A stretch of DNA of 64,000 bases from contig NC_014934.1 in NCBI RefSeq assembly GCF_000186265.1, positions 1,054,001 through 1,118,000 of the forward strand, written 5' to 3'. Source of the stretch: Cellulophaga algicola DSM 14237 (GTDB lineage: Bacteria; Bacteroidota; Bacteroidia; Flavobacteriales; Flavobacteriaceae). This document shows positions 10,966 to 53,431 of this stretch, in pieces. A program made the translations under genes and the position numbers. Numbering within the stretch: position 1 is the stretch's first letter; every line of letters starts with the position of its first letter. The notes beneath the pieces are model-generated. The model was not told the origin of the DNA and did no database searches. It saw only the letters and a program-made list of their open reading frames with translations.

Positions 10966-11038
10966 GGTGCCTTAGCTCAGTTGGTAGAGCAATGGACTGA
11001 AAATCCATGTGTCCCTGGTTCGATTCCTGGAGGCACCA
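10966..11038 (+). tRNA. tRNA-Phe (anticodon GAA)
   Basis: The full cloverleaf can be folded: a seven-pair acceptor stem (GGTGCCT with AGGCACC), D-stem GCTC/GAGC, anticodon stem ATGGA/TCCAT with loop CTGAAAA, and T-loop TTCGATT. The anticodon GAA is at 10999-11001. The T-stem has one T-T mismatch (11016 with 11028). The discriminator is A at 11038, and CCA is not encoded. A strong promoter lies upstream and a terminator directly downstream. Confidence 0.97.
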
Positions 11039-42162: not shown

Positions 42163-42191
42163 TTGAAAAGTCAATTTAATTTGTACTTTTG
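42163..42191 (+). promoter_or_regulatory. Promoter of the arginine/proline operon
   Basis: TACTTTTG at 42184-42191 is a full match to the TAnnTTTG -7 element. A TTG at 42163-42165 lies 18 bases upstream as the -33 element. The expected start site is near 42196-42198, directly before the ATG of the small leader ORF at 42199, so the leader would be translated from an almost leaderless transcript. Confidence 0.65.
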
Positions 42192-42198
42192 ACTCATA

Positions 42199-42282
42199 AT
42201 GAACAACAACAATAACATATTCACTACTAACAGGTCATCTTCACCTGTTCGTTCATTTACGCCTACACGTCGTCGCCCGTAA
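42199..42282 (+). CDS. Putative arginine leader peptide (27 residues)
   Basis: A 27-codon ORF between promoter and the first biosynthetic gene. The peptide starts with an Asn run (MNNNNN) and contains five Arg residues at positions 12, 18, 24, 25 and 26, ending TRRRP. Three consecutive Arg codons (CGT CGT CGC) lie directly before the last sense codon. Five Arg in 27 residues before an arginine operon is the pattern of ribosome-mediated attenuation. I know no described Flavobacteriaceae example, so translation and function are inferred from sequence and position. Confidence 0.6.
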   Translation: MNNNNNIFTTNRSSSPVRSFTPTRRRP

Positions 42283-42321
42283 GGGTGCATTATAACTATG
42301 GAAATAGGTGAGTCCATTTCC
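42229..42321 (+). promoter_or_regulatory. Candidate attenuator: alternating hairpins over and after the Arg-rich leader
   Basis: Hairpin 1-2: AACAGGT (42229-42235) pairs with ACCTGTT (42243-42249). A second hairpin CGCCC-GTAA-GGGTG (42274-42287, one G-T pair, GNRA-type loop) covers the last Arg codon and the stop. Hairpin 3-4: GGAAAT (42300-42305) pairs with ATTTCC (42316-42321), with two more G-C pairs inside. TCACCT (42241-42246) can instead pair with AGGTGA (42306-42311), joining arm 2 to arm 3. The last hairpin has no T run, so the off-switch may be Rho-dependent or translational. Confidence 0.5.
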
Positions 42322-42377
42322 GCTAAGTCTCAAAACAACATTTCATTAATATTTTTACTCTTAAACCCTAATTGGCA

Positions 42378-43001
42378 ATGGAATTACTAATTGCTAACGA
42401 ATCACATTTTAAGTATGCAGAAATTATCTGCGATACTATTGCAGATTCTGCTAAAACTCGTGGTACTGGTATTGCAAAACGTACGCCAGAATACATTCGT
42501 AAGAAACTTGAAAACGGTAATGCTGTAATAGCTTTAGATGGAACCACATTTGCGGGCTTCTGCTATATTGAAGTTTGGGGACATGGAAAATATGTCGCCA
42601 ACTCTGGACTTATCGTACATCCAGATTACAGAGATAGAGGCTTAGCTAAACAAATTAAGCAACGAATCTTTGATCTTTCTGGTGAAAAATTTCCTGATGC
42701 TAAAATCTTTGGTATTACTACCGGATTAGCCGTAATGAAAATTAATTACGAATTAGGATATAAACCAACAACATTCTCTGAACTTACAGATGACCCAGAG
42801 TTTTGGAAAGGTTGCCAAACCTGTAAAAATTTTGATATTCTTACACGTACCGAACGTAAGATGTGCTTGTGTACAGCTATGCTTTACGACCCTAAAGCCG
42901 TATCAAAAAAGAAAGCCGTAGAAGAGAAAGAAAAATTAAATACCAAAGCTTTTAAGCGATTAAAAAGTATAAAAGAATCCCTTTTCCTAAAAAAGAAATA
43001 A
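42378..43001 (+). CDS. GNAT acyltransferase, candidate glutamate N-acyltransferase of arginine synthesis
   Basis: A 207-residue GNAT protein from ATG 42378, with the acyl-CoA-binding segment VHPDYRDRGLAKQIKQRI at about residues 80-97. It is the first gene of the arginine operon, and no ArgJ or classical ArgA is visible, so it most likely makes the N-acylglutamate that ArgB uses. The acyl group may be acetyl or succinyl (see argF'). After the GNAT core four cysteines, Cys146, Cys149, Cys163 and Cys165, form a possible metal-binding knuckle (GCQTCK ... MCLC). A basic Lys-rich tail follows. Confidence 0.75.
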   Translation: MELLIANESHFKYAEIICDTIADSAKTRGTGIAKRTPEYIRKKLENGNAVIALDGTTFAGFCYIEVWGHGKYVANSGLIVHPDYRDRGLAKQIKQRIFDLSGEKFPDAKIFGITTGLAVMKINYELGYKPTTFSELTDDPEFWKGCQTCKNFDILTRTERKMCLCTAMLYDPKAVSKKKAVEEKEKLNTKAFKRLKSIKESLFLKKK

Positions 43002-43002
43002 A

Positions 43003-44190
43003 ATGAAAAAATTAGTTTTAGCCTACAGTGGCGGATTAGACACATCATACTGTGCAAAACATTTATCAAAAGACAAAGGGTTTGAAGTTCATGCCGTTAG
43101 TGTTAATACAGGCGGATTCTCAAAAGAAGAAATAAGTCAGATTGAAAAAAAATCTTTAGAATTAGGGGCTACTTCGTATAAATCTATTGATGCCGTTCAA
43201 ACATTTTACGATAAAGTAGTAAAATATTTAATCTTTGGGAACGTATTAAAAAACAATACGTACCCATTATCGGTTAGTGCAGAACGTATTGTACAAGCTA
43301 TTGAAATTGTAAACTACGCTAAAAAAGTAGATGCAAAATATATTGCACACGGAAGTACCGGAGCAGGAAATGATCAAGTTCGTTTTGATATGATTTTTCA
43401 AATCATTGCCCCTGAAATAGAAATCATCACCCCTATTAGAGATAATAAATTATCTAGAGAAACAGAAATTGCTTACTTGAAAGAAAATGGAATTGACTAC
43501 CCTTGGGAAAAAGCAAAATACTCTATTAACAGAGGGCTTTGGGGAACATCTGTTGGGGGCGAGGAAACATTAACCTCTAACAAAGCATTACCAGATAGTG
43601 CATACCCAAGTCAATTACAAGAAAAAGAACCTACAGACGTAAAACTAACTTTTGAAAAAGGAGAATTAGTAGCTGTTGATGGCGTCAAAGATAAACCTGT
43701 TGCCAATATAGAAAAGCTAGAAGCTATGGCTTCTAAATATGCCATTGGTAGAGATATACATGTGGGCGATACTATTATTGGCACAAAAGGCAGAGTTGGT
43801 TTTGAAGCTGCTGCTGCTTTAATCATCATTAAGGCACATCATTTATTAGAAAAACATACCCTTACCAAATGGCAACAATACCAAAAAGAACAGCAAGGTA
43901 ACTTCTATGGAATGTTGTTACACGAGGGTAATTATTTAGATGAAGTAATGCGAAACATTGAAGCTTTCTTAACAGATACTCAAAAGAATGTTTCTGGGGA
44001 TGTTTTCTTAAGCTTATACCCATTCCAATTTAGATTAAACGGAATTTCATCTACACATGATTTAATGACGGATGCTTTTGGAAGTTACGGTGAAGAAAAT
44101 AAAGGATGGTCTGCTACCGATGCGAAAGGTTTTATAAAAATACTTTCAAATCCAGGTAGAATATACAATCATGTAAACGTAGAAAAGTAA
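43003..44190 (+). CDS. argG: Argininosuccinate synthase
   Basis: Joins citrulline and aspartate using ATP. The 395-residue protein starts with the N-type ATP pyrophosphatase loop LVLAYSGGLDTS. It has IAHGSTGAGNDQVRFD and SINRGLWGTSVGGEE, the latter typical of the substrate site. The start follows the GNAT stop by one base. Family assignment is firm. Confidence 0.96.
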   Translation: MKKLVLAYSGGLDTSYCAKHLSKDKGFEVHAVSVNTGGFSKEEISQIEKKSLELGATSYKSIDAVQTFYDKVVKYLIFGNVLKNNTYPLSVSAERIVQAIEIVNYAKKVDAKYIAHGSTGAGNDQVRFDMIFQIIAPEIEIITPIRDNKLSRETEIAYLKENGIDYPWEKAKYSINRGLWGTSVGGEETLTSNKALPDSAYPSQLQEKEPTDVKLTFEKGELVAVDGVKDKPVANIEKLEAMASKYAIGRDIHVGDTIIGTKGRVGFEAAAALIIIKAHHLLEKHTLTKWQQYQKEQQGNFYGMLLHEGNYLDEVMRNIEAFLTDTQKNVSGDVFLSLYPFQFRLNGISSTHDLMTDAFGSYGEENKGWSATDAKGFIKILSNPGRIYNHVNVEK

Positions 44191-44195
44191 AAACG

Positions 44196-45170
44196 ATGAT
44201 CAAAGCAGGCATAATTGGTGGTTCTGGATATACGGGTGGAGAACTTATTCGTATTCTTTTAAACCATCTTGAAACAGAAATAGATTTTGTGTATAGCACT
44301 ACAAGAGCAGGTAAAAAAATTACTACAGCACATCCTGATTTATTAGGTCTTACAACTATTGCTTTTACAGGTACTGTAAATTTAAAAGTCGATGTTGTTT
44401 TCTTATGCTTAGGACATGGAAATTCTACCAAGTTTTTGAAAGAAAATAAATTTTCTTCAGATACTAAAATTATAGATTTAAGTAATGACTTTCGCTTACA
44501 TGCAGATGCTATATTAGAGGGCAAAGAATTTGTTTATGGTTTACCTGAAACCAATAAGGAAAAAATAAAGTCCGCCAATTACATTGCAAATCCCGGTTGC
44601 TTTGCTACCGCTATTCAATTGGCTTTATTACCCTTAGCAAAAGCAGGACTCCTTAAAAAAGAAATACATATTAATGCTGTTACAGGGAGTACTGGTGCTG
44701 GCGTTAGTCCTTCTGACACGACACATTTTAGCTGGAGGAACAATAACGTGTCTTGGTACAAGCCATTCACACATCAACATTTAGGAGAAGTAGGTGAAAG
44801 TTTAGCTTCTTTTAATACTCCTGTTGGCGAGTTATTATTTCTACCCACTAGAGGAAACTTTCCTAGAGGAATTTTAGCTACAGCATATACCGTGTTTGAT
44901 GGTGAACTAGACGAGGTAATTGCTTTATATAAAGATTTTTACAAAAACGCTTTGTTTACTCAGGTTGCAGACGAAGAAATACATCTAAAACAAGTGGTAA
45001 ACACCAATCAGTGTCATATTCACTTACACAAACACAATAACAGATTATTGATCACTTCTGCAATAGACAACCTATTAAAAGGTGCCTCTGGACAAGCGGT
45101 ACAAAATATGAATCTCATGTTTGGTCTTGAAGAGCGTAGCGGATTAAATTTAAAAGCAGCAGCATTCTAG
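44196..45170 (+). CDS. argC: N-acyl-gamma-glutamyl-phosphate reductase
   Basis: Third step of arginine synthesis. The 324-residue protein has the NADP loop AGIIGGSGYTGGELIRIL and the active-site Cys in IANPGCFAT. The His-containing HQHLGEVGE and LPTRGNFPRGIL follow. It is near the usual family length. It starts five bases after argG. Substrate may be the N-acetyl or N-succinyl compound depending on the pathway variant. Confidence 0.95.
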   Translation: MIKAGIIGGSGYTGGELIRILLNHLETEIDFVYSTTRAGKKITTAHPDLLGLTTIAFTGTVNLKVDVVFLCLGHGNSTKFLKENKFSSDTKIIDLSNDFRLHADAILEGKEFVYGLPETNKEKIKSANYIANPGCFATAIQLALLPLAKAGLLKKEIHINAVTGSTGAGVSPSDTTHFSWRNNNVSWYKPFTHQHLGEVGESLASFNTPVGELLFLPTRGNFPRGILATAYTVFDGELDEVIALYKDFYKNALFTQVADEEIHLKQVVNTNQCHIHLHKHNNRLLITSAIDNLLKGASGQAVQNMNLMFGLEERSGLNLKAAAF

Positions 45171-45252
45171 TTAGCTTCGGTTAGCGCAAAATAAACGCAT
45201 CCTTTATCGGAAAGGAAGGTATAGGTAACAAAAACGAACTTAAAGAACAGTA

Positions 45253-46053
45253 ATGAAAATAGCAATTATAGGAGCAGGAAATTTAGGTCTGGCTATTGCC
45301 AAAGGAATCTTAGCTACCAATGGTGCAACTACCATGTACCTAACCAAAAGAAAAACAGGCAGCATTGAAAAGTTTGAAAAATACGGCAATGTAACCGTCA
45401 CCTCTAATAATAGAGAGGCTGTAACTAACGCTGATATTCTAATTTTTGCAGTTCAACCCAATCAGTTTGTAAACATACTAGAAGAAGTAAAAGACCTATT
45501 AACAGATAAACATGTGTTAATTTCAACCATTACTGGGTTTAGTATCGCTCAAATAGAGGCTATCGTAGGAGAAGACCAAAATATTATTAGAAGTATGCCT
45601 AATACAGCAATTTCTGTAGGCAAATCTATGACCTGTATTTGCGCTAATGAAAGGGGAAAGAAAAGAATTGAACTGGCGCTGGCAATCTTTAACAGAATGG
45701 GATATTCTATGGAAATTCCGGAATCTCAAATGCAAGCAGCTACTGTAATTTGTGCTAGCGGAATTGCATTTTGGATGCGTATGATTCGCGCAACTACACA
45801 AGGTGCAATACAATTAGGTTTTGATGCTAAAGAAGCACAAGAACTAGCCATGCACACCTGTAATGGTGCCGCAGCCCTACTCATTGAGTCTGGCAGCCAT
45901 CCAGAAGCAGAAATAGACAGAGTTACAACGCCTCAAGGTTGTACTATTCAAGGATTAAACGAAATGGAACATCAAGGTTTGAGTTCTTCATTAATACAAG
46001 GGATTGTAGCTTCTTACGATAAAATTAGCCGTATCAAAGAAGGAAACATGTAG
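45253..46053 (+). CDS. proC: Pyrroline-5-carboxylate reductase
   Basis: Last step of proline synthesis. The 266-residue protein has KIAIIGAGNLGLAIAKGIL at the N-terminus (NAD(P) binding), NIIRSMPNTAISVG, and the C-terminal VTTPQGCTIQGLNEMEHQG signature. It is embedded among arginine genes after an 82-base gap, in which TCCTTT/AAAGGA could form a short hairpin without a T run. Confidence 0.94.
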   Translation: MKIAIIGAGNLGLAIAKGILATNGATTMYLTKRKTGSIEKFEKYGNVTVTSNNREAVTNADILIFAVQPNQFVNILEEVKDLLTDKHVLISTITGFSIAQIEAIVGEDQNIIRSMPNTAISVGKSMTCICANERGKKRIELALAIFNRMGYSMEIPESQMQAATVICASGIAFWMRMIRATTQGAIQLGFDAKEAQELAMHTCNGAAALLIESGSHPEAEIDRVTTPQGCTIQGLNEMEHQGLSSSLIQGIVASYDKISRIKEGNM

Positions 46054-46078
46054 TTACTAATACATTAAAAATTAAAAA

Positions 46079-47203
46079 ATGAAACTATTTGATGTTTATC
46101 CTTTATACAACGTAACTCCCGTAAGTGCTAAAGGAAGTATCGTTACCGATATAAACGGACAAGAGTATTGGGATTTTTATGGAGGTCATGCTGTAATATC
46201 TATCGGACATGGACACCCACATTATGTTAAAAGATTAGAAGATCAATTACATAAAATTGGGTTTTACAGCAATGCTATTCAAAACCCACTACAAACAGAA
46301 CTCGCTACTAAATTAGGAGTACTGTCTGACTGTGAAGATTATAATTTATTTCTATGTAGTTCAGGAGCAGAAGCCAATGAAAATGCTTTAAAAATGGCTT
46401 CATTTATTACTGGAAAATCAAGAGTTATTGCTTTCAATAATGGATTTCACGGAAGAACCTCTGCCGCTGTTGCCGCTACTGATAATCAGAACATAAATGC
46501 CCCCATCAATAAACAGCAAAAAGTAACTTTTTTACCTTTTGATGCTATTGATGCCTTTGAAAGCGAAATTAAAAAAGGAGATGTTTGCGCCGTAATTCTT
46601 GAAGCAATTCAAGGAGTGGGCGGATTAGACGAACCATCTACCGAATTCTACCAAGAAATTGCAAGAAGCTGTAAAGAGCATGGTGTTATATTAATCGCAG
46701 ATGAAGTGCAATCCGGATTTGGCAGAAGTGGTAAATTCTTTGGATTTCAACATCACAACATTCAACCAGACATTATTAGTATCGCTAAAGGAATGGGGAA
46801 TGGTTTTCCTGTAGGAGGAGTTCTAATTCACGAAAGCATTGAAGCTAAATACGGAATGCTAGGAACCACCTTTGGCGGTAACCATTTGGCATGTGCTGCA
46901 TCTCTTGCCGTGTTAGAAGTTATTGAAAAAGAGAAGCTAATAGAAAATGCAGATAAGATAGGTAACTATTTTAAAAAACGTGCTGTTGAAATTCCACAAG
47001 TAAAGAAAATTAAAGGACGTGGATTAATGCTTGGTTTAGAGTTTGATTTTGAAGTGTCAGAATTACGCAAGAGACTAATTTACGATCAGCATATTTTTAC
47101 CGGTGGAGCAAGTAATAAAAAACTGCTGCGTATTTTACCTGCGCTTAACATTTCAGAAAAAGAGATTGATATCTTCTTTGAAGCTTTAAAAAAAGAACTA
47201 TAG
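46079..47203 (+). CDS. argD: N-acylornithine/ornithine aminotransferase, class III PLP enzyme
   Basis: Transfers an amino group between glutamate and N-acylglutamate semialdehyde. The 374-residue class III aminotransferase has CSSGAEANENALKMA, FHGRTSAAVAATDN, LIADEVQSGFGRSG and the PLP lysine in ISIAKGMGNGFPVGG. Its position between proC and proA means it could serve arginine synthesis, ornithine-proline exchange, or both. The last base of its stop is the first base of the next gene's GTG start. Confidence 0.93.
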   Translation: MKLFDVYPLYNVTPVSAKGSIVTDINGQEYWDFYGGHAVISIGHGHPHYVKRLEDQLHKIGFYSNAIQNPLQTELATKLGVLSDCEDYNLFLCSSGAEANENALKMASFITGKSRVIAFNNGFHGRTSAAVAATDNQNINAPINKQQKVTFLPFDAIDAFESEIKKGDVCAVILEAIQGVGGLDEPSTEFYQEIARSCKEHGVILIADEVQSGFGRSGKFFGFQHHNIQPDIISIAKGMGNGFPVGGVLIHESIEAKYGMLGTTFGGNHLACAASLAVLEVIEKEKLIENADKIGNYFKKRAVEIPQVKKIKGRGLMLGLEFDFEVSELRKRLIYDQHIFTGGASNKKLLRILPALNISEKEIDIFFEALKKEL

Positions 47204-48402
47204 TGAGTTTATTATTAAGTATAGAACAACGGAATAAGGTTTTAAATACCATGGCTGAGTATATAGCCCTGGAAAAAGAAGCTATTTTAGAAGCCAATAA
47301 AAAAGATCTGGCAGCCTATACCGGTGATGATCTTGCTATGGGAGACCGACTAAAAGTTGATGACGCTAAAATTGAAGGTATGATTATATCTTTACAACAA
47401 TTGGCAGAACAAGAAGATCCTTTAGGGGTAGAACGCTTTGGTTTCACGCATGAAAATGGCATTAAAGTGAGTAATAAAACAGCTCCTTTTGGAACTATTT
47501 GCATTATTTACGAATCAAGGCCAGATGTAACTATTGAAGCCGCCGGGATTGCTTTTAAATCTGGAAATAAAATCTTATTAAAAGGCGGAAAAGAATCCAT
47601 ACAAAGTAATTTAGCCTTAGTAGCGCTTTGGCATAAAGCTTTAGAGCACAACGAGTGCACTACGGACTGGGTAACCTATTTGCAATTTAACCGTGAAGAA
47701 ACACAAGCATTTTTACAAAATCCAACACAAAAAATAGATTTAATTGTACCACGTGGAGGAGAAAAGTTAATTGCCTTTGTAAAGAAACACGCTACTTGCC
47801 CTGTAATTATCAGCGGGAGAGGTAATAATTTTGCTTACGTTGCCACAGATGCCGATTTAGAAATGGCAATCGATATTATTATCAATGCAAAAACCACCAA
47901 AATATCAGCTTGTAATGCGTTAGACAAAGTTCTAATTGCTGCTGATATGCCTCGGAAATTTGAATTTCTTCAACATCTAATTCAAGAATTAAAGAAACGT
48001 GATGTAGAAATTTTAACAGATCAAACGCTTTCTGATTTAGAAGGTTCTACCACTTTTGAAGATGAAGCAATTTGGTATGAAGAGTTTTTAGATTATAAGA
48101 TTGTTATTGGACAGGTTGCAGACATAAACGAAGCAGTAGCTAAAATTAATACCTACGGTGGCGGCCATTCTGCTGTGATTATCACTTCAAACGAAGAAAA
48201 AGCACAGCTATTTATGGAGTCTGTAGATTCTGCCGCAGTATATCATAACGCCTCCACGCGATTTACCGATGGTTTTCAATTTGGATTAGGAGGAGAACTA
48301 GCCATAAGTACAGATAAATTACACCAAAGAGGACCTATTGGCCTACAGCATTTAGTAACCAATAAATGGTATGTTTTAGGAAACGGACAAGTTAGAAGTT
48401 AA
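47203..48402 (+). CDS. proA: Gamma-glutamyl phosphate reductase
   Basis: Second step of proline synthesis. The 399-residue aldehyde-dehydrogenase-fold protein has a GTG start that overlaps the argD stop by one base. Motifs are YESRPDVTIEAAG, KGGKESIQSN, VPRGGEKLI, the catalytic Cys in KISACNALDKVLI, and the ending FGLGGELAIST. Its product, glutamate semialdehyde, cyclises to the ProC substrate. Confidence 0.95.
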   Translation: MSLLLSIEQRNKVLNTMAEYIALEKEAILEANKKDLAAYTGDDLAMGDRLKVDDAKIEGMIISLQQLAEQEDPLGVERFGFTHENGIKVSNKTAPFGTICIIYESRPDVTIEAAGIAFKSGNKILLKGGKESIQSNLALVALWHKALEHNECTTDWVTYLQFNREETQAFLQNPTQKIDLIVPRGGEKLIAFVKKHATCPVIISGRGNNFAYVATDADLEMAIDIIINAKTTKISACNALDKVLIAADMPRKFEFLQHLIQELKKRDVEILTDQTLSDLEGSTTFEDEAIWYEEFLDYKIVIGQVADINEAVAKINTYGGGHSAVIITSNEEKAQLFMESVDSAAVYHNASTRFTDGFQFGLGGELAISTDKLHQRGPIGLQHLVTNKWYVLGNGQVRS

Positions 48403-48408
48403 GATAAA

Positions 48409-49170
48409 ATGAAGAAGATTCGCGTATTATTAAAAGTGGGTTCAAATACTTTAACTAAAGAAACAAATCATATTTCTCGAGGAAAAGTAGAAGATATTGG
48501 GCGTCAAATAGAGCACTTAAAAGACACACATGAATTTATTATCGTGAGCTCTGGTGCAATTGCTGCAGCACGACAATTTGTAAAATTAGAGCACAATGGG
48601 GAAGATATCAATGTAAAACAGGCATTAGCTTCTATTGGTCAGCCCCACTTAATGCGTATTTTCCAAGAGAATTTTCGTGAATTAGGGTTGTTTACTTCAC
48701 AATGTTTGTTATCCTATTTAGATTTTGAAAACCCAAAATCTAAATCGAATATTAAAAATACTATAGACGTTTTAGTCGCGAATAATTTTATCCCAATTAT
48801 TAACGAGAATGACACCGTAGCTACCGATGAAATACAGTTTGGCGACAATGATAAATTAGCCGCATTAACCGCAGCTTTATTAAAAGTTGATTTACTGATC
48901 ATTGCCACCAATACCGATGGAGTTTACACGAAAAAATCACTTACGGAAATAATGCCAGAAACGATTAAGGAGGTCATCCATTTAAATGAATTGATTAATG
49001 AAGTTGGCGATCATAAGTCTACACACGGCACTGGCGGTATGCAATCTAAAATAGAAGCAGCAACCATTGCAAAAGCTGCTAATATTGAAACATGGATCAT
49101 CAACGGAATAAAAGATAATTTTATCACGGATGCCATGAATGGTAAAAGTAATTTTACAAAAATAAAGTAA
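48409..49170 (+). CDS. proB: Glutamate 5-kinase without PUA domain
   Basis: First step of proline synthesis. The 253-residue amino-acid-kinase domain has VLLKVGSNTLTKET, FIIVSSGAIAAARQ, INENDTVATDEIQFGDND and GTGGMQSKIEAA. Longer ProB proteins of about 370 residues carry a C-terminal PUA domain; it is absent here, as in other short ProB forms. The consequence for proline feedback inhibition is not visible from sequence. It begins six bases after proA. Confidence 0.94.
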   Translation: MKKIRVLLKVGSNTLTKETNHISRGKVEDIGRQIEHLKDTHEFIIVSSGAIAAARQFVKLEHNGEDINVKQALASIGQPHLMRIFQENFRELGLFTSQCLLSYLDFENPKSKSNIKNTIDVLVANNFIPIINENDTVATDEIQFGDNDKLAALTAALLKVDLLIIATNTDGVYTKKSLTEIMPETIKEVIHLNELINEVGDHKSTHGTGGMQSKIEAATIAKAANIETWIINGIKDNFITDAMNGKSNFTKIK

Positions 49171-49199
49171 AGCCTTAAGGTTATAAAAAGTACAGTATC

Positions 49200-50141
49200 A
49201 TGAAGCATTACACTAGCATTCAAGACATAGATTCGCTCCCAAATTGGATACAGGAAGCAAGAGCATTAAAAGCAGCACCTAAAGCGTTTAAAAATTTAGG
49301 AGCAGATAAAACCATTTGCCTATTGTTTTTTAATAATAGTCTAAGAACACGCTTAAGTACGCAAAAAGCAGCTACTAATTTAGACTTGGAAGTAATGGTC
49401 ATGAATTTTGGAAGTGAAGGCTGGGCTTTAGAATATGAAGACGGCACTATTATGGACCAAGGTACATCTGAACATATTAAAGAAGCTGCGCAGGTAGTTT
49501 CTCAATTTTGTGATATCGTTGCCATACGTGCTTTTGCTACTTTAACAGATAAAGAAAAAGATGAAGCAGAGTTAGTCCTTAACGGTTTCAAAAAATATAC
49601 GAGTATTCCTGTTGTAAATATGGAGAGTTCTGTTGGTCACCCATTGCAAGCCTTGGCAGATGCTATCACGATAAGTGAGCAAAACACAAAAGCTAGGCCT
49701 AAGGTTGTGCTTTCTTGGGCACCACACCCTAAAGCTTTACCACATGCCGTAGCAAATTCTTTCACAGAAATGATGCTAAAACAAGAAGCCGATTTTGTAA
49801 TTACACACCCAGAAGGTTATGAATTAAATCCTGAAATTACAAAAGACGCTACGATAGAATACAATCAAGAAAAAGCATTAGAAAATGCAGATTTTGTGTA
49901 TGTAAAAAATTGGAGTAGCTACAAAGACTACGGTAAAGTAATCAACCAAGATAAAAATTGGATGATGACTAAAGAAAAACTAGGGAGTGCAAAATTCATG
50001 CATTGTTTACCTGTACGTAGAAATGTAGTGGTAGAAGATGCTGTTTTAGATTCTGATCAAAGTATTGTCATAGCACAAGCCAATAATAGAACTTATGCTG
50101 CCCAAATCGTATTAAAGAAAATTCTAGAGCACCTTATCTAA
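49200..50141 (+). CDS. argF': N-acylornithine carbamoyltransferase, probably N-succinyl type
   Basis: Carbamoylates N-acyl-L-ornithine instead of ornithine. The 313-residue protein has the carbamoyl-phosphate motif NNSLRTRLST (classical enzymes have SxRTR) and LSWAPHPKALPHAVANSF and FMHCLPVRRN, all typical of this branch. At residue 90 (MDQGTSEHI) it has Ser. From memory of work on Xanthomonas and Bacteroides enzymes, Glu here selects acetyl and Pro or Ser permits succinyl, so a succinylated route is the better guess. The call to this branch is strong; the acyl preference is inference. Confidence 0.88.
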   Translation: MKHYTSIQDIDSLPNWIQEARALKAAPKAFKNLGADKTICLLFFNNSLRTRLSTQKAATNLDLEVMVMNFGSEGWALEYEDGTIMDQGTSEHIKEAAQVVSQFCDIVAIRAFATLTDKEKDEAELVLNGFKKYTSIPVVNMESSVGHPLQALADAITISEQNTKARPKVVLSWAPHPKALPHAVANSFTEMMLKQEADFVITHPEGYELNPEITKDATIEYNQEKALENADFVYVKNWSSYKDYGKVINQDKNWMMTKEKLGSAKFMHCLPVRRNVVVEDAVLDSDQSIVIAQANNRTYAAQIVLKKILEHLI

Positions 50142-50181
50142 TACTAGTAGGAGAAAGGAATAACAAACTTAATCTGGAAAA

Positions 50182-51006
50182 ATGAAGACAAATTCAACCG
50201 AAAATAATAATCTTCCTTATGGGGAGAAAAAGAGAGGATTATCAGTTGTAAAAATAGGAGGCAATGTCATTGAAGATTCCGTTGCTCTGGATAAATTCTT
50301 GACATTATTCTCAAAAATAGAAGGCCCTAAAATTTTAGTCCATGGAGGTGGTAAATTAGCCACTCAATTAGCCAATAAGCTAGGGATTGCTTCACAATTA
50401 GTTAACGGAAGACGTATTACCGATGGTGAAAGTATTGATATTATCACCATGGTATATGGAGGCCTAACCAATAAAACTATTGTTGCAAAATTACAAGCAA
50501 AGAGCTGTAATGCCATAGGTCTTAGCGGTGCTGATGGCGATGCCATTCAGGCCCATAAACGCCCTGTAAAAGAAATAGATTATGGTTTTGTTGGTGATAT
50601 TGACGGAATAAATTCAGAATTAATTAATTCTTTATTAAAAATAGGCTTAACCCCTGTATTTTGTGCTTTATCACATGATGGTAATGGACAAATATTAAAT
50701 ACCAATGCGGATACCATCGCTTCTGAAATTGCTATTGGAATGGGAGAAAAATACGAGACAACTCTGTACTATTGTTTTGAGAAAAAAGGGGTTCTTTTAA
50801 ATATTAACGACGAAAATTCTGTAGTTACGCATATCAATACAGCGAAGTATAAAGAACTACTGGATCAAAAAATTATAGCAGATGGTATGCTTCCTAAGCT
50901 AGAAAATTGCTATCATGCATTACATCATAACGTACATAAAGTGTGTTTGGGTGATCTAGAAATGATTCACGAAGACGCACAATTGTTCACCACAATAACC
51001 TTATAA
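50182..51006 (+). CDS. argB: N-acylglutamate kinase
   Basis: Phosphorylates N-acylglutamate. The 274-residue amino-acid-kinase protein has VVKIGGNVIED, ILVHGGGKLATQLA, IGLSGADGDAIQA and LNTNADTIASEIA. An N-terminal extension of about 18 polar residues precedes the fold and lacks the N-helix of arginine-inhibited hexameric enzymes. That suggests control at expression level, fitting the leader upstream. It ends two bases before argE. Confidence 0.93.
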   Translation: MKTNSTENNNLPYGEKKRGLSVVKIGGNVIEDSVALDKFLTLFSKIEGPKILVHGGGKLATQLANKLGIASQLVNGRRITDGESIDIITMVYGGLTNKTIVAKLQAKSCNAIGLSGADGDAIQAHKRPVKEIDYGFVGDIDGINSELINSLLKIGLTPVFCALSHDGNGQILNTNADTIASEIAIGMGEKYETTLYYCFEKKGVLLNINDENSVVTHINTAKYKELLDQKIIADGMLPKLENCYHALHHNVHKVCLGDLEMIHEDAQLFTTITL

Positions 51007-51008
51007 TC

Positions 51009-52073
51009 ATGAATCAAAAGCAACTTACAGAAAAAGCAATCGATTTACTAAAACAATTAATTAGTATACAATCTTTTTCTACCGAAGAAGACAAAACTGC
51101 TAACGCTATCCAAGACTGGTTTCACTTTTTGGAGATTCCTTTCACAAGAGATAACAACAATGTATATGCAAAAAATAAACATTGGGATGATACAAAACCG
51201 ACATTACTTTTAAATTCCCATCACGATACTGTTAAACCTAATCAAGCTTATACGAAAGACCCATTTCTACCACATATTGAAGATGGCAAGTTATATGGCT
51301 TAGGCAGTAATGATGCTGGAGGTTGTTTGGTTTCTTTATTAGCTACCTTTTCACATTTTTACGCTTCAGAAAATCTAAATCACAATATTCTAATGGTTGC
51401 GTCCGCAGAAGAAGAGAACGCTGGAGTGAATAGCCTAAGAGGACTTTTACCTTCATTACCGCATATAGATGTTGCTATTGTTGGTGAACCTACATTAATG
51501 AATTTAGCCGTTGCAGAAAAAGGATTAGTAGTTTTCGATGCAGTTGTTAAAGGAACGCCTTCTCATGCTGCACACCCTAATAATGACAATGCCATATATA
51601 ATACCATAGAAGTTTTAGAATGGTTTAAAAACTATAGCTTTGAAAAAACATCAGAGGCACTGGGAGAAGTAAAAATGACGGTGACGCAAATTAAAGCTGG
51701 AAGCCAACATAATGTAGTACCATCACAGGTAGATTTAGTTATTGACGTGCGTGTCAATGATTGTTATACCAATCTAGAGATTGCTACGATGCTTAAAACA
51801 GAAGCACCTTGTATGTTGCAAGAACGCGGATTAAAACTAAATTCATCAAAAATTAATAAAGACCACGCTTTGGTGCAATCAGGAATTGCACTAGGAAGAG
51901 AAACCTATGGTTCTCCTACACTTTCTGATCAAGCTGCACTTACATGCCAATCGTTAAAATTAGGGCCGGGAGATAGTACACGTTCTCATTCTGCAGATGA
52001 ATTTATCTTTGTGAATGAAATAGAAGAAGGCGTAGATTTGTATATTAAAATTTTAGAAGGATTTTTGCACTAA
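51009..52073 (+). CDS. argE: M20-family N-acyl-ornithine/citrulline deacylase
   Basis: A 354-residue zinc peptidase-fold enzyme with the metal-binding NSHHDTV, GLGSNDAGGCL and ASAEEENAG motifs. The dimerisation region has TPSHAAHP and the C-terminal segment HSADEFIF. Because the carbamoyltransferase acts on acylated ornithine, the natural substrate here is probably N-acylcitrulline. It starts two bases after argB. Confidence 0.9.
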   Translation: MNQKQLTEKAIDLLKQLISIQSFSTEEDKTANAIQDWFHFLEIPFTRDNNNVYAKNKHWDDTKPTLLLNSHHDTVKPNQAYTKDPFLPHIEDGKLYGLGSNDAGGCLVSLLATFSHFYASENLNHNILMVASAEEENAGVNSLRGLLPSLPHIDVAIVGEPTLMNLAVAEKGLVVFDAVVKGTPSHAAHPNNDNAIYNTIEVLEWFKNYSFEKTSEALGEVKMTVTQIKAGSQHNVVPSQVDLVIDVRVNDCYTNLEIATMLKTEAPCMLQERGLKLNSSKINKDHALVQSGIALGRETYGSPTLSDQAALTCQSLKLGPGDSTRSHSADEFIFVNEIEEGVDLYIKILEGFLH

Positions 52074-52150
52074 GCGTGCAGCTAATTATGTAAAAAATTC
52101 AGGTACAAATATGTATTTTGAATTTTAAATTTCAACTTGACAAACGACTT

Positions 52151-53431
52151 ATGAAACTTTGGGATAAAGGATTTAGCACCGATAAGAAAATTGATCATTT
52201 CACAGTAGGTAATGATCGCGAATTAGATTTATTATTGGCTAAATATGATGTAATAGCATCTACAGCACATGCCAAAATGTTAGGCAGGATTGGCTTACTA
52301 ACGAAAGATGAAACCGATAGCCTTGTAAAAGAACTTGCCAATATTGGTAAAAGTATTGAAAAAGGAGAATTTATCATTGAAGATTCTTTTGAAGATATGC
52401 ATTCTAAAATCGAGTATGTGCTAACCGAAAAGCTAGGCGATACCGGTAAAAAAATTCACACAGCACGTTCCAGAAATGATCAGGTTTTAGTAGCGATGCA
52501 TTTGTATTTAAAGAATGAGTTAGCAGAAATAAAATCTGAGACAAAAATACTTTTTGACCTATTATTAAATTTAGCTGATAAATATAAGTCGGTTTTAATC
52601 CCTGGCTATACTCATTTACAAATTGCAATGCCGTCTTCTTTTGGCTTATGGTTTTCTGCCTATGCAGAAAGTTTAATTGATGATTTGTATTTTATTGATG
52701 CAGCTTACAAAATAGCAGATCAAAACCCTTTAGGTAGTGCTGCTGGTTATGGTAGTTCTTTTCCTGTTGACAGGACTTTTACGACGAAAGAAATGGGTTT
52801 TGCAAATTTAAAATACAATGTTGTTGCCGCACAAATGGGACGTGGAAAAGTTGAGAAAGCCACGGCTTTTGGCATAAGCAGTATAGCTGCTACCTTATCC
52901 AAAATGGGAATGGATATCTGTTTGTATATGAGTCAGAATTTTAATTTTATTTCTTTCCCTGATGAACTTACAACAGGCTCTAGCATTATGCCACACAAGA
53001 AAAATCCTGATGTTTTTGAACTGGTACGAGGTAAATGCAATAAGCTACAAGGAGTCCCTAATCAACTGGCTTTAATCTTAACAAATTTACCTAGTGGGTA
53101 TCACCGCGATTTACAATTGGTAAAAGAAGTAATTGTACCTGCAATTCAAGATTTAAGAGCTTGTATAGAAATCTTAACGTTCAGTTTAAAAGAAGTTAGA
53201 GTAAATCAAAACATTCTGGAAGATCCTAAATATGATTATTTATTTAGCGTAGACACTTTAAATGAATTGGTTTTAAGTGGCATTCCTTTTCGCGATGCAT
53301 ACAAACAAATGGGTACAGAAATTCATGAAGGTAGATTTACGCCCAAGCGTGATATAAAACACACCCATGAAGGTAGTTTAGGCAACTTATGTCTAAATGA
53401 TATCCGAAAGAAAATGGAAGATATCATGTAA
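52151..53431 (+). CDS. argH: Argininosuccinate lyase
   Basis: Releases arginine and fumarate in the last step. The 426-residue protein from ATG 52151 begins KLWDKGFSTDKKIDHFTVGN, as Bacteroidota ArgH proteins do, so the upstream TTG at 52118 is not used. It carries HTARSRNDQV, the fumarase-superfamily signature GSSIMPHKKNPD, and LPSGYHRDLQLVKE. It is the last gene of the operon and is followed by a strong terminator. Confidence 0.95.
   Translation: MKLWDKGFSTDKKIDHFTVGNDRELDLLLAKYDVIASTAHAKMLGRIGLLTKDETDSLVKELANIGKSIEKGEFIIEDSFEDMHSKIEYVLTEKLGDTGKKIHTARSRNDQVLVAMHLYLKNELAEIKSETKILFDLLLNLADKYKSVLIPGYTHLQIAMPSSFGLWFSAYAESLIDDLYFIDAAYKIADQNPLGSAAGYGSSFPVDRTFTTKEMGFANLKYNVVAAQMGRGKVEKATAFGISSIAATLSKMGMDICLYMSQNFNFISFPDELTTGSSIMPHKKNPDVFELVRGKCNKLQGVPNQLALILTNLPSGYHRDLQLVKEVIVPAIQDLRACIEILTFSLKEVRVNQNILEDPKYDYLFSVDTLNELVLSGIPFRDAYKQMGTEIHEGRFTPKRDIKHTHEGSLGNLCLNDIRKKMEDIM

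Follow-up and report, generated by a model that had tools for sequence, protein, structure and literature searches.

How do Flavobacteriaceae tie the expression of their arginine genes to the supply of arginine? The question is raised by the DNA ahead of an arginine and proline operon of Cellulophaga algicola DSM 14237, within a stretch of 64,000 nucleotides that we analysed as a whole (the window) and in which an earlier note had read an Arg-rich leader ORF set among hairpins. No description of arginine-synthesis control in this family was found in the literature searched, and a search for ArgR (PF01316) gave no match in any of 60 family genomes and a match in 9 of 14 controls, among them Bacteroides. 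Because ArgR is scarce throughout the class (7/119), we tone down the idea of a simple swap of ArgR for the leader.

Each feature that the earlier note had named, a -7 box, an ATG, a 27-codon ORF with five Arg codons and three hairpins, was found in the sequence (Table 1). Three of the Arg codons are consecutive, and the ORF closes with Arg-Arg-Arg-Pro-stop. The box matches the -7 promoter consensus of Bacteroidota, TAnnTTTG (PMC9723704), and a transcript initiated from it would start a few bases from the leader ATG, so that it would be leaderless or nearly so. Behind the leader, the first gene codes for a GNAT-family acetyltransferase that gave no match to NCBIfam at E ≤ 1e-10; the protein has a Cys-rich C-terminal part (GCQTCKNFD...MCLCTAMLYDP) and is possibly, as a matter of speculation, the N-acetylglutamate synthase of the pathway. 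Among the genes that follow, the argF-like one is of the N-acetylornithine carbamoyltransferase type (NCBIfam), and both it and argD score under the cut-off of their best NCBIfam model. An ORF at 52118-53431 (+) is presumably argH. The sole Rfam match at threshold within the window is a tRNA gene at 10966-11038.

Table 1. Leader and operon features (window positions), with the his and phe leaders of the same genome for comparison
Feature	Position	Strand	Basis or remark
-7 box, TACTTTTG	42184..42191	+	match to Bacteroidota promoter consensus TAnnTTTG
Leader ORF, 27 codons, MNNNNNIFTTNRSSSPVRSFTPTRRRP then stop	42199..42282	+	ATG at 42199
Hairpin 1, 7 bp, within leader ORF	42229..42249	+	folding z -4.38
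Arg codon run CGT CGT CGC, proposed sensor	42268..42276	+	conserved in relatives' leaders
Hairpin A, CGCCC-GTAA-GGGTG, stop TAA (42280-42282) in loop	42274..42287	+	alignment of relatives
Hairpin B, GGAAAT-A(bulge)-GG-TGAGT-CC-ATTTCC	42300..42321	+	covarying outer stem, conserved GG-UGNGU-CC tip
A+T-rich stretch, hairpin B to GNAT gene	42322..42377	+	no terminator-like site (scan)
First gene, GNAT-family acetyltransferase	42378..43001	+	Pfam PF00583
argG, argC, proC, argD, proA, proB, argF-like, argB	43003..51006	+	NCBIfam matches
ArgE/DapE-like deacylase	51009..52073	+	match below cut-off
his leader (L324)	G000:C1 near 4747559-4748023	-	upstream of hisG
phe leader (L339)	G000:C1 near 2497542-2498078		upstream of pheA

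The leader is conserved well beyond this genome. The GNAT gene is present in 17 of 18 same-genus genomes, and a leader ORF ending in RRRP and a stop stands at all 17 loci, where its last codons read CGY CGY CGC CCG TAA; the genus alignment of 17 rows shows little variation in the -7 box, in the Arg run, in hairpin A or at the tip of hairpin B. In the family, sampled as one genome per genus, 98 of 149 genomes gave a GNAT match. We read the upstream DNA of these 98 genomes together with the same-genus loci (L001-L114) and recognised the element at 106 of 114, 97 by the pattern of the hairpin B tip and nine by eye; it was not recognised at L052, L056, L058, L069, L107, L112, L113 and L114. The 106 loci supplied the 104 distinct rows of an alignment (A2), and counts given below for 104 leaders refer to L001-L114 with duplicates removed, that is, to the same genus plus one genome per family genus.

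A covariance model of the 3' part of the leader (R1) later matched near three of the eight loci just named (L058, L069 and, weakly, L052). It matches 102 of the 149 family genomes at E ≤ 0.1, of which nine lie above 0.001, leaving 93. argG exceeds its Pfam cut-off in 102 of the 149; all 93 genomes fall within these 102, and none of the 47 others matches, with the qualification that 90 of the 93 supplied rows to the model and hence match by construction. The matching genomes outside the model-building set are G101, G078 and G132, and five more genomes that are not in the model match as well (G328, G426, G447, G454 and G488). In G101 the element precedes a different first gene, followed by argG. 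Nine argG genomes have no match at E ≤ 0.001 (G034, G050, G068, G082, G086, G127, G138, G144 and G157). At this same threshold R1 matches 11 of 148 genomes of the order and 3 of 198 of the class, all of them in the same family, and in ten listed genomes of genus g128 it matches none, with G357 of that genus matching at 0.034. The C. algicola genome holds a single match at E ≤ 0.1. Of 32 weaker R1 matches that might be second copies, the 12 inspected by eye were chance-like and none precedes an arg gene. A leader ORF with a terminal Arg run, together with conserved hairpins, is linked to argG in Flavobacteriaceae.

Two loci without an R1 match at E ≤ 0.001 deserve mention for their own sake. 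At the one locus of genus g128 that was read (L190, in G144), the GNAT-argG order is kept with no Arg leader in front. In G050 (L188, 1176-1283, - strand) a degenerate relative can be discerned by eye, with a leader ending in RFDFRRRLLA and a stop, followed by two hairpins, the second of which lacks the GGTGNGTCC tip.

A wider sample came from an exact pattern scan of the contigs of 84,980 species, in which CGCCCGTAAGGGT and AGGTGNGTCC are fixed. It returned at least 119 matching stretches, and the 80 listed were used (L202-L281); these carry Flavobacteriaceae genus names or broader Bacteroidota labels, and among the matches listed are Maribacter, Zobellia, Cellulophaga, Winogradskyella, Tenacibaculum, Dokdonia and two labelled Flavobacterium. 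The leader peptide of Cellulophaga baltica in this set (L229) is identical to that of a same-genus genome (L010). From 186 loci in all, removal of identical regions left 172, and dropping one without a readable Arg codon left 171; counts on these 171-172 loci are biased at the bases that the scan fixes.

Two architectures can be told apart among the 171 loci, 117 with one leader (type A) and 54 with a further Arg-rich ORF upstream (type B), the latter defined by an ORF start 225-250 nt before the hairpin B tip, with L270 probably spurious. An example of the type B upstream ORF is MKTLKNKIRCTIPGLPVRSRRRF in L060. The last leader in type B often lacks an ATG, and its frame, judged by eye, runs back to a CATAGTGTCC-like site with GTG, TTG or ATG. 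Mapped onto a quickly built GNAT tree, the type labels (85 A, 20 B) require five changes, where shuffled labels require 18.7, and architecture therefore follows descent. In L054, L060, L062, L070, L075, L093 and other type B loci this second leader lies about 300 nt before GNAT, contains a recurrent Asn-Lys-Ile-Arg segment, ends in Arg codons, and has, by eye, a small hairpin over its stop, giving the appearance of a tandem arginine leader. Of the 117 type A leaders, 51 have an exact TAnnTTTG box 6-10 nt 5' of the ATG, 48 of them at 7 or 8 nt, and the remaining 66 lack an exact box.

What is conserved within the ORF is the Arg run rather than the peptide. Upstream of the run, the median open length at 103 loci is 39 codons in the Arg frame and 14 in the other two. 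In 97 of 104 leaders the last Arg codon, which was located by pattern, is preceded by another Arg codon, and only this preceding one is informative; with the 17 genus loci, this bears out the expectation that an Arg-run ORF would be found before the arg/pro operon in other Flavobacteriaceae. Runs of one, two, three, four and five Arg codons occur in 7, 45, 41, 10 and 1 of the 104. Over the 171 loci, codon -1 is CGT in 112, CGC in 45, CGA in 3, CGG in 1 and not Arg in 10, up to 80 of these loci having been selected by a pattern that fixes the last codon and leaves the one before it free. Within the last twelve positions the leaders use CGC 368, CGT 277, CGA 15, AGG 14, AGA 9 and CGG 2 times, whereas 13 genes of the window use AGA 58, CGT 33, CGC 10, CGA 8, AGG 4 and CGG 2 times; CGY thus accounts for 645 of 685 leader Arg codons (94%) and for 43 of 115 in the genes, where AGA is commonest. 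Since third positions vary, Arg stays and CGY is preferred, the run is apparently selected as codons. Outside it the peptide is variable (at least 2.4 bits at every other type A position), with a weak preference for Phe and Pro upstream and strong conservation of the Arg run and Pro only. The window's peptide and the first 23 residues of the L011 peptide have no Pfam match, and the leader peptide has no NCBIfam family match, both being weak tests for queries so short. The pattern fits selection on Arg codons rather than on the peptide, and the codon pattern likewise suggests that the leader is translated.

The same data bear on nascent-chain arrest, in which arginine or ornithine would cause a peptide ending in Arg-Arg-Pro-stop to stall the ribosome on its stop codon. 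TnaC arrests in this manner in response to tryptophan. The last codons of the leader are almost invariant, and Arg-Pro-stop, with the stop two codons past the last Arg codon, is found in 90 of 104 leaders, as such an arrest would lead one to expect. Against it, the stop lies 3-11 codons past the last Arg in the other 14, the remainder of the peptide varies, and the Pro codon is largely forced by the CCC arm of hairpin A. We regard arrest as very unlikely.

The hairpins are established by conservation and not by energy alone. The centroid fold of 42199-42330 gives hairpins 1, A and B; hairpin 1 taken alone is matched by 0 of 200 shuffles, whereas 42265-42325 has z -1.41 (20 of 200 shuffles as good) and the whole leader z -1.18 (26 of 200). 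Across 72 type A leaders, the hairpin 1 region has a mean z of -1.23, with 53% below -1, so that this hairpin stays in position in many of them, and the consensus fold contains hairpins A and B only. Over the 13 pairs of these two hairpins, standard pairs fill 92.8% of the cells, and 22-64% once the partner is shifted; both sides have changed in 77 cells, where shuffles give 22.3 (sd 3.7). Of the covariation that the earlier note had proposed to look for in three stems, hairpin B has it, hairpin A shows little, and hairpin 1 has dropped out of the consensus. For hairpin A, 88.4% of cells are paired in alignment A2; its scant covariation is in part a consequence of its coding role, and its arms stay complementary in rows without the loop stop codon (GCAC/GTGC, GCCC/GGGC).

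Hairpin B is the more elaborate of the two, with a covarying outer stem, a 5'-side bulge, a GG/CC clamp and a UGNGU loop. It had been described as GGAAAT/ATTTCC; that stem is present, and what the description overlooked, the inner bulged A and the GG/CC closing TGAGT, is the most conserved piece (window letters). With the bulge aligned and the register set to maximise pairing, the outer six pairs are standard in 617 of 636 cells (106 loci), and on the GNAT tree of 106 the pairs undergo at least 6, 10, 5, 3, 1 and 5 changes of Watson-Crick type (at least 30). The bulge is 1, 2 or 3 nt long in 70, 34 and 2 of the 106, which argues against a coding cause of the conservation; a second ORF over hairpin B was rejected because such bulges would break its frame. 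A Shine-Dalgarno mimic was also considered. We take AGGTGA to resemble the complement of the 16S 3' end. The idea is disfavoured, as the clamp pair changes in four rows yet stays paired, and as no start codon lies at the right distance in the window.

A variable stem, a conserved bulge and a near-invariant GG-UGNGU-CC tip are what one would expect of a binding site. The hairpins might, accordingly, be chiefly the binding site of a protein or of a small molecule, whether arginine or an intermediate, in the manner of a riboswitch or a repressor target, with the leader ORF as a secondary input; that the hairpin A arms outlast the loss of the stop codon, and that no ArgR was found in the 60 family genomes searched, would sit well with this. 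The Arg run speaks the other way, being as conserved as the hairpins and varying synonymously, and a pure aptamer needs neither. Two short hairpins are also small for an aptamer, and Rfam (T-box, Bacteroid-trp and Flavo-1 included) has no match at gathering threshold for the leader in the window; among 11 relatives searched at E up to 5, six matches were returned, all sub-gathering and chance-level. A role confined in the main to binding is thus unlikely in our view.

The earlier note had drawn an attenuator of the trp/his type, in which TCACCT (42241-42246) pairs with AGGTGA (42306-42311). This pairing is possible in the window and is not conserved: six contiguous pairs can form in 24% of 171 relatives and in 24% of shuffled sequences. 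Pairing of the 3' arm of hairpin A (GGGTG) with the stretch after hairpin B fares no better (23% vs 34% shuffled), an all-against-all covariation scan of the 72 type A leaders was dominated by G-T artefacts, with hairpins A and B as the consensus fold, and pairing of the hairpin B tip with the Arg codons was dropped as no covariation between loop bases and codons was seen. No conserved, mutually exclusive helix that would relay the position of the ribosome was found among the two pairings tested and the consensus fold. The alternating arms are therefore without comparative support, and Arg-dependent ribosome stalling is still the best reading of the conserved pattern.

If ribosomes stall on the Arg codons, what do they control? 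Classical attenuators, with which the genus itself provides a comparison, end in a terminator. Upstream of hisG, the C. algicola genome encodes the leader peptide MKNYTTHHHHFYTCFQAR, its stop followed by a strong intrinsic terminator, and upstream of pheA (prephenate dehydratase) the peptide MTKLYFWNGFFFYFFFKRGAGLL, likewise with a stop and an intrinsic terminator; both are textbook attenuator peptides. Matches to hisG and to pheA were found in 13 same-genus genomes and 12 loci of each were analysed, all 12 hisG loci carrying a His-run leader and a terminator, and all 12 pheA loci a Phe-rich leader and a terminator. When 115 nt ahead of the gene are scanned, terminator-like sites are present at 12 of 12 hisG, 11 of 12 pheA and 2 of 17 arg loci of the genus; within 150 nt the pheA count is 12 of 12, as is that of hisG.

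At the arg leader, a T run is wanting behind both hairpin A and hairpin B in the window, and 4 of 171 loci have a terminator-like site downstream of hairpin B and ahead of the first gene, in agreement with the earlier remark that none follows the third hairpin. The window's single scored terminator-like site is hairpin 1 with its CGTTCATTTA tail (1 vs 0.2 expected in a simple scan). When the scan takes in the whole leader, terminator-like sites turn up in 34 of 171 loci, against 15 of 513 mononucleotide shuffles; 25 of these are at hairpin A, five earlier in the ORF and four at or after hairpin B. A T-rich stretch directly behind hairpin A with a weak-terminator score was noted in L007, L049, L072, L098 and others (26 loci listed). 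Intrinsic termination or pausing at hairpin A and its spacer, or an attenuator of the trp/his type, could draw on those 25 loci, on a spacer between hairpins A and B that is 54% T (37% further down), and on the classical his and phe attenuators of the genus. In only 11 of 171 loci, though, do the eight bases directly behind hairpin A include at least six T, the window itself has no T run there, and the alternative pairing stands at chance. We judge this explanation quite unlikely as the main account. The non-standard output suggested earlier is strengthened by the strong his and phe terminators of the same genus, with the reservation that hairpin A, with its T-rich spacer, may act as a weak terminator.

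Translational control would offer an output that needs no termination, the translation of the leader opening or closing the GNAT start. The window, in which no terminator follows the hairpins, would allow it, and the S. aureus rbfL leader acts on the translation of the next gene. The distances are unfavourable, the hairpin B tip lying 59 to 115 nt before the GNAT match; the consensus fold holds no pairing to the start region, and the element in G101 stands before a different first gene. This is, to our minds, the most improbable of the explanations weighed here.

The geometry of the leader bears on what a stalled ribosome could reach. In 157 of 171 loci the stop codon and the hairpin B tip are 25-29 nt apart. 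With the front edge of the ribosome at +13, as read from toeprints (PMC13009471), a ribosome with the first Arg codon in its A site would extend to about 42281, over the 5' arm of hairpin A, and one at the stop codon to about 42293, short of hairpin B. From these positions, the ribosome can control hairpin A and probably not hairpin B.

We consider it probable, if only modestly so, that the leader is a ribosome-read arginine sensor, in which stalling at Arg codons feeds a non-standard output. RNA polymerase would start almost at the leader ATG, with a ribosome close behind. When Arg-tRNA for CGY codons is scarce, the ribosome would stall on the terminal Arg run and cover the 5' arm of hairpin A; with ample arginine it would reach the stop in the hairpin A loop and leave, allowing hairpin A to refold beside hairpin B. 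The state of hairpin A beside a constant hairpin B would then decide the expression of the operon. As the output we would place first Rho-dependent termination, acting within the leader or shortly behind it and prevented by the stalled ribosome, and second a weak pause or weak termination at hairpin A and its T-rich spacer. The genome contains a Rho gene. Rho dependence draws on this gene and on a mild excess of C over G (0.30 vs 0.18), and the excess could stem from the Arg and Pro codons alone. Hairpin B may serve as a recognised RNA site, read by polymerase, by Rho, by a ribonuclease or by a protein of its own. That the leader is translated, that ribosomes stall on it, that arginine represses the operon and how the output is produced are all inferred.

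More tentatively, hairpins A and B might form an undescribed output module, in which a factor that recognises the UGNGU tip would turn the position of the ribosome into an on/off decision; we hold this to be possible rather than probable. If true, the leader would be a two-input switch, combining the charging of Arg-tRNA with an RNA-binding protein or ligand, and would do the work that ArgR does elsewhere. The genome brings its own natural controls, textbook his and phe leaders beside a compact arg element with a single match, and the coupling of ribosome position to expression without a strong terminator becomes directly testable in Bacteroidota. A rule for annotation would also follow, pairing an Rfam-type family with a short peptide that is absent from the libraries searched.

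How does the leader compare with known systems? No arginine leader of this kind in Bacteroidota was found in the literature searched, which was mostly without subscription papers. Bacteroid-trp, from the same group of bacteria, has been linked to attenuation. Like the arg element, it is a candidate structured RNA of Bacteroidetes (Rfam RF01692; PMC2864571). In Flavobacterium psychrophilum, clues to leader-peptide attenuation were noted before amino-acid operons, with pheA and hisG named, and no arg element is named in the parts consulted (PMC9723704); passages on attenuators in PMC2965389 mention neither Bacteroidetes nor arginine. Classical attenuators, including those of hisG and pheA in the genus, likewise have a short ORF with a run of codons for the amino acid of the pathway before a biosynthetic gene. 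The his and phe leaders, however, end in a strong hairpin and a T run, whereas the arg leader shows a pair of conserved hairpins with nothing stronger than a weak T-rich spacer; with exclusive pairing not found and a terminator doubtful, we do not file it as a classical attenuator.

Two systems in other bacteria make use of Arg codons. The S. aureus rbfL leader ORF also senses arginine through Arg codons, but these are AGA and AGG, it is the next start site that is occluded, and the target is a biofilm regulator (PMC13009471). In the Salmonella speF leader, the short ORF orf34 senses arginine by ribosome pausing at consecutive Arg codons, and a hairpin over the stop codon is followed by a downstream hairpin whose folding in speF depends on the position of the ribosome; its authors found no intrinsic terminator, and Rho and RNase G are involved (PMC6386406). 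The differences lie in the target, an ornithine decarboxylase, in Arg codons 12-13 that are far from the stop, in the DUF2618 peptide, in the long 5'UTR and in the occurrence in gammaproteobacteria (PMC6386406). Behind the leader in the window the genes are arg and pro genes, and the DUF2618 and ornithine decarboxylase hallmarks were not found there. With its consecutive Arg codons, its hairpin over the stop, the hairpin that follows and the part played by Rho and RNase G, the speF leader serves as a working precedent for the Arg-codon stalling that we consider most likely.
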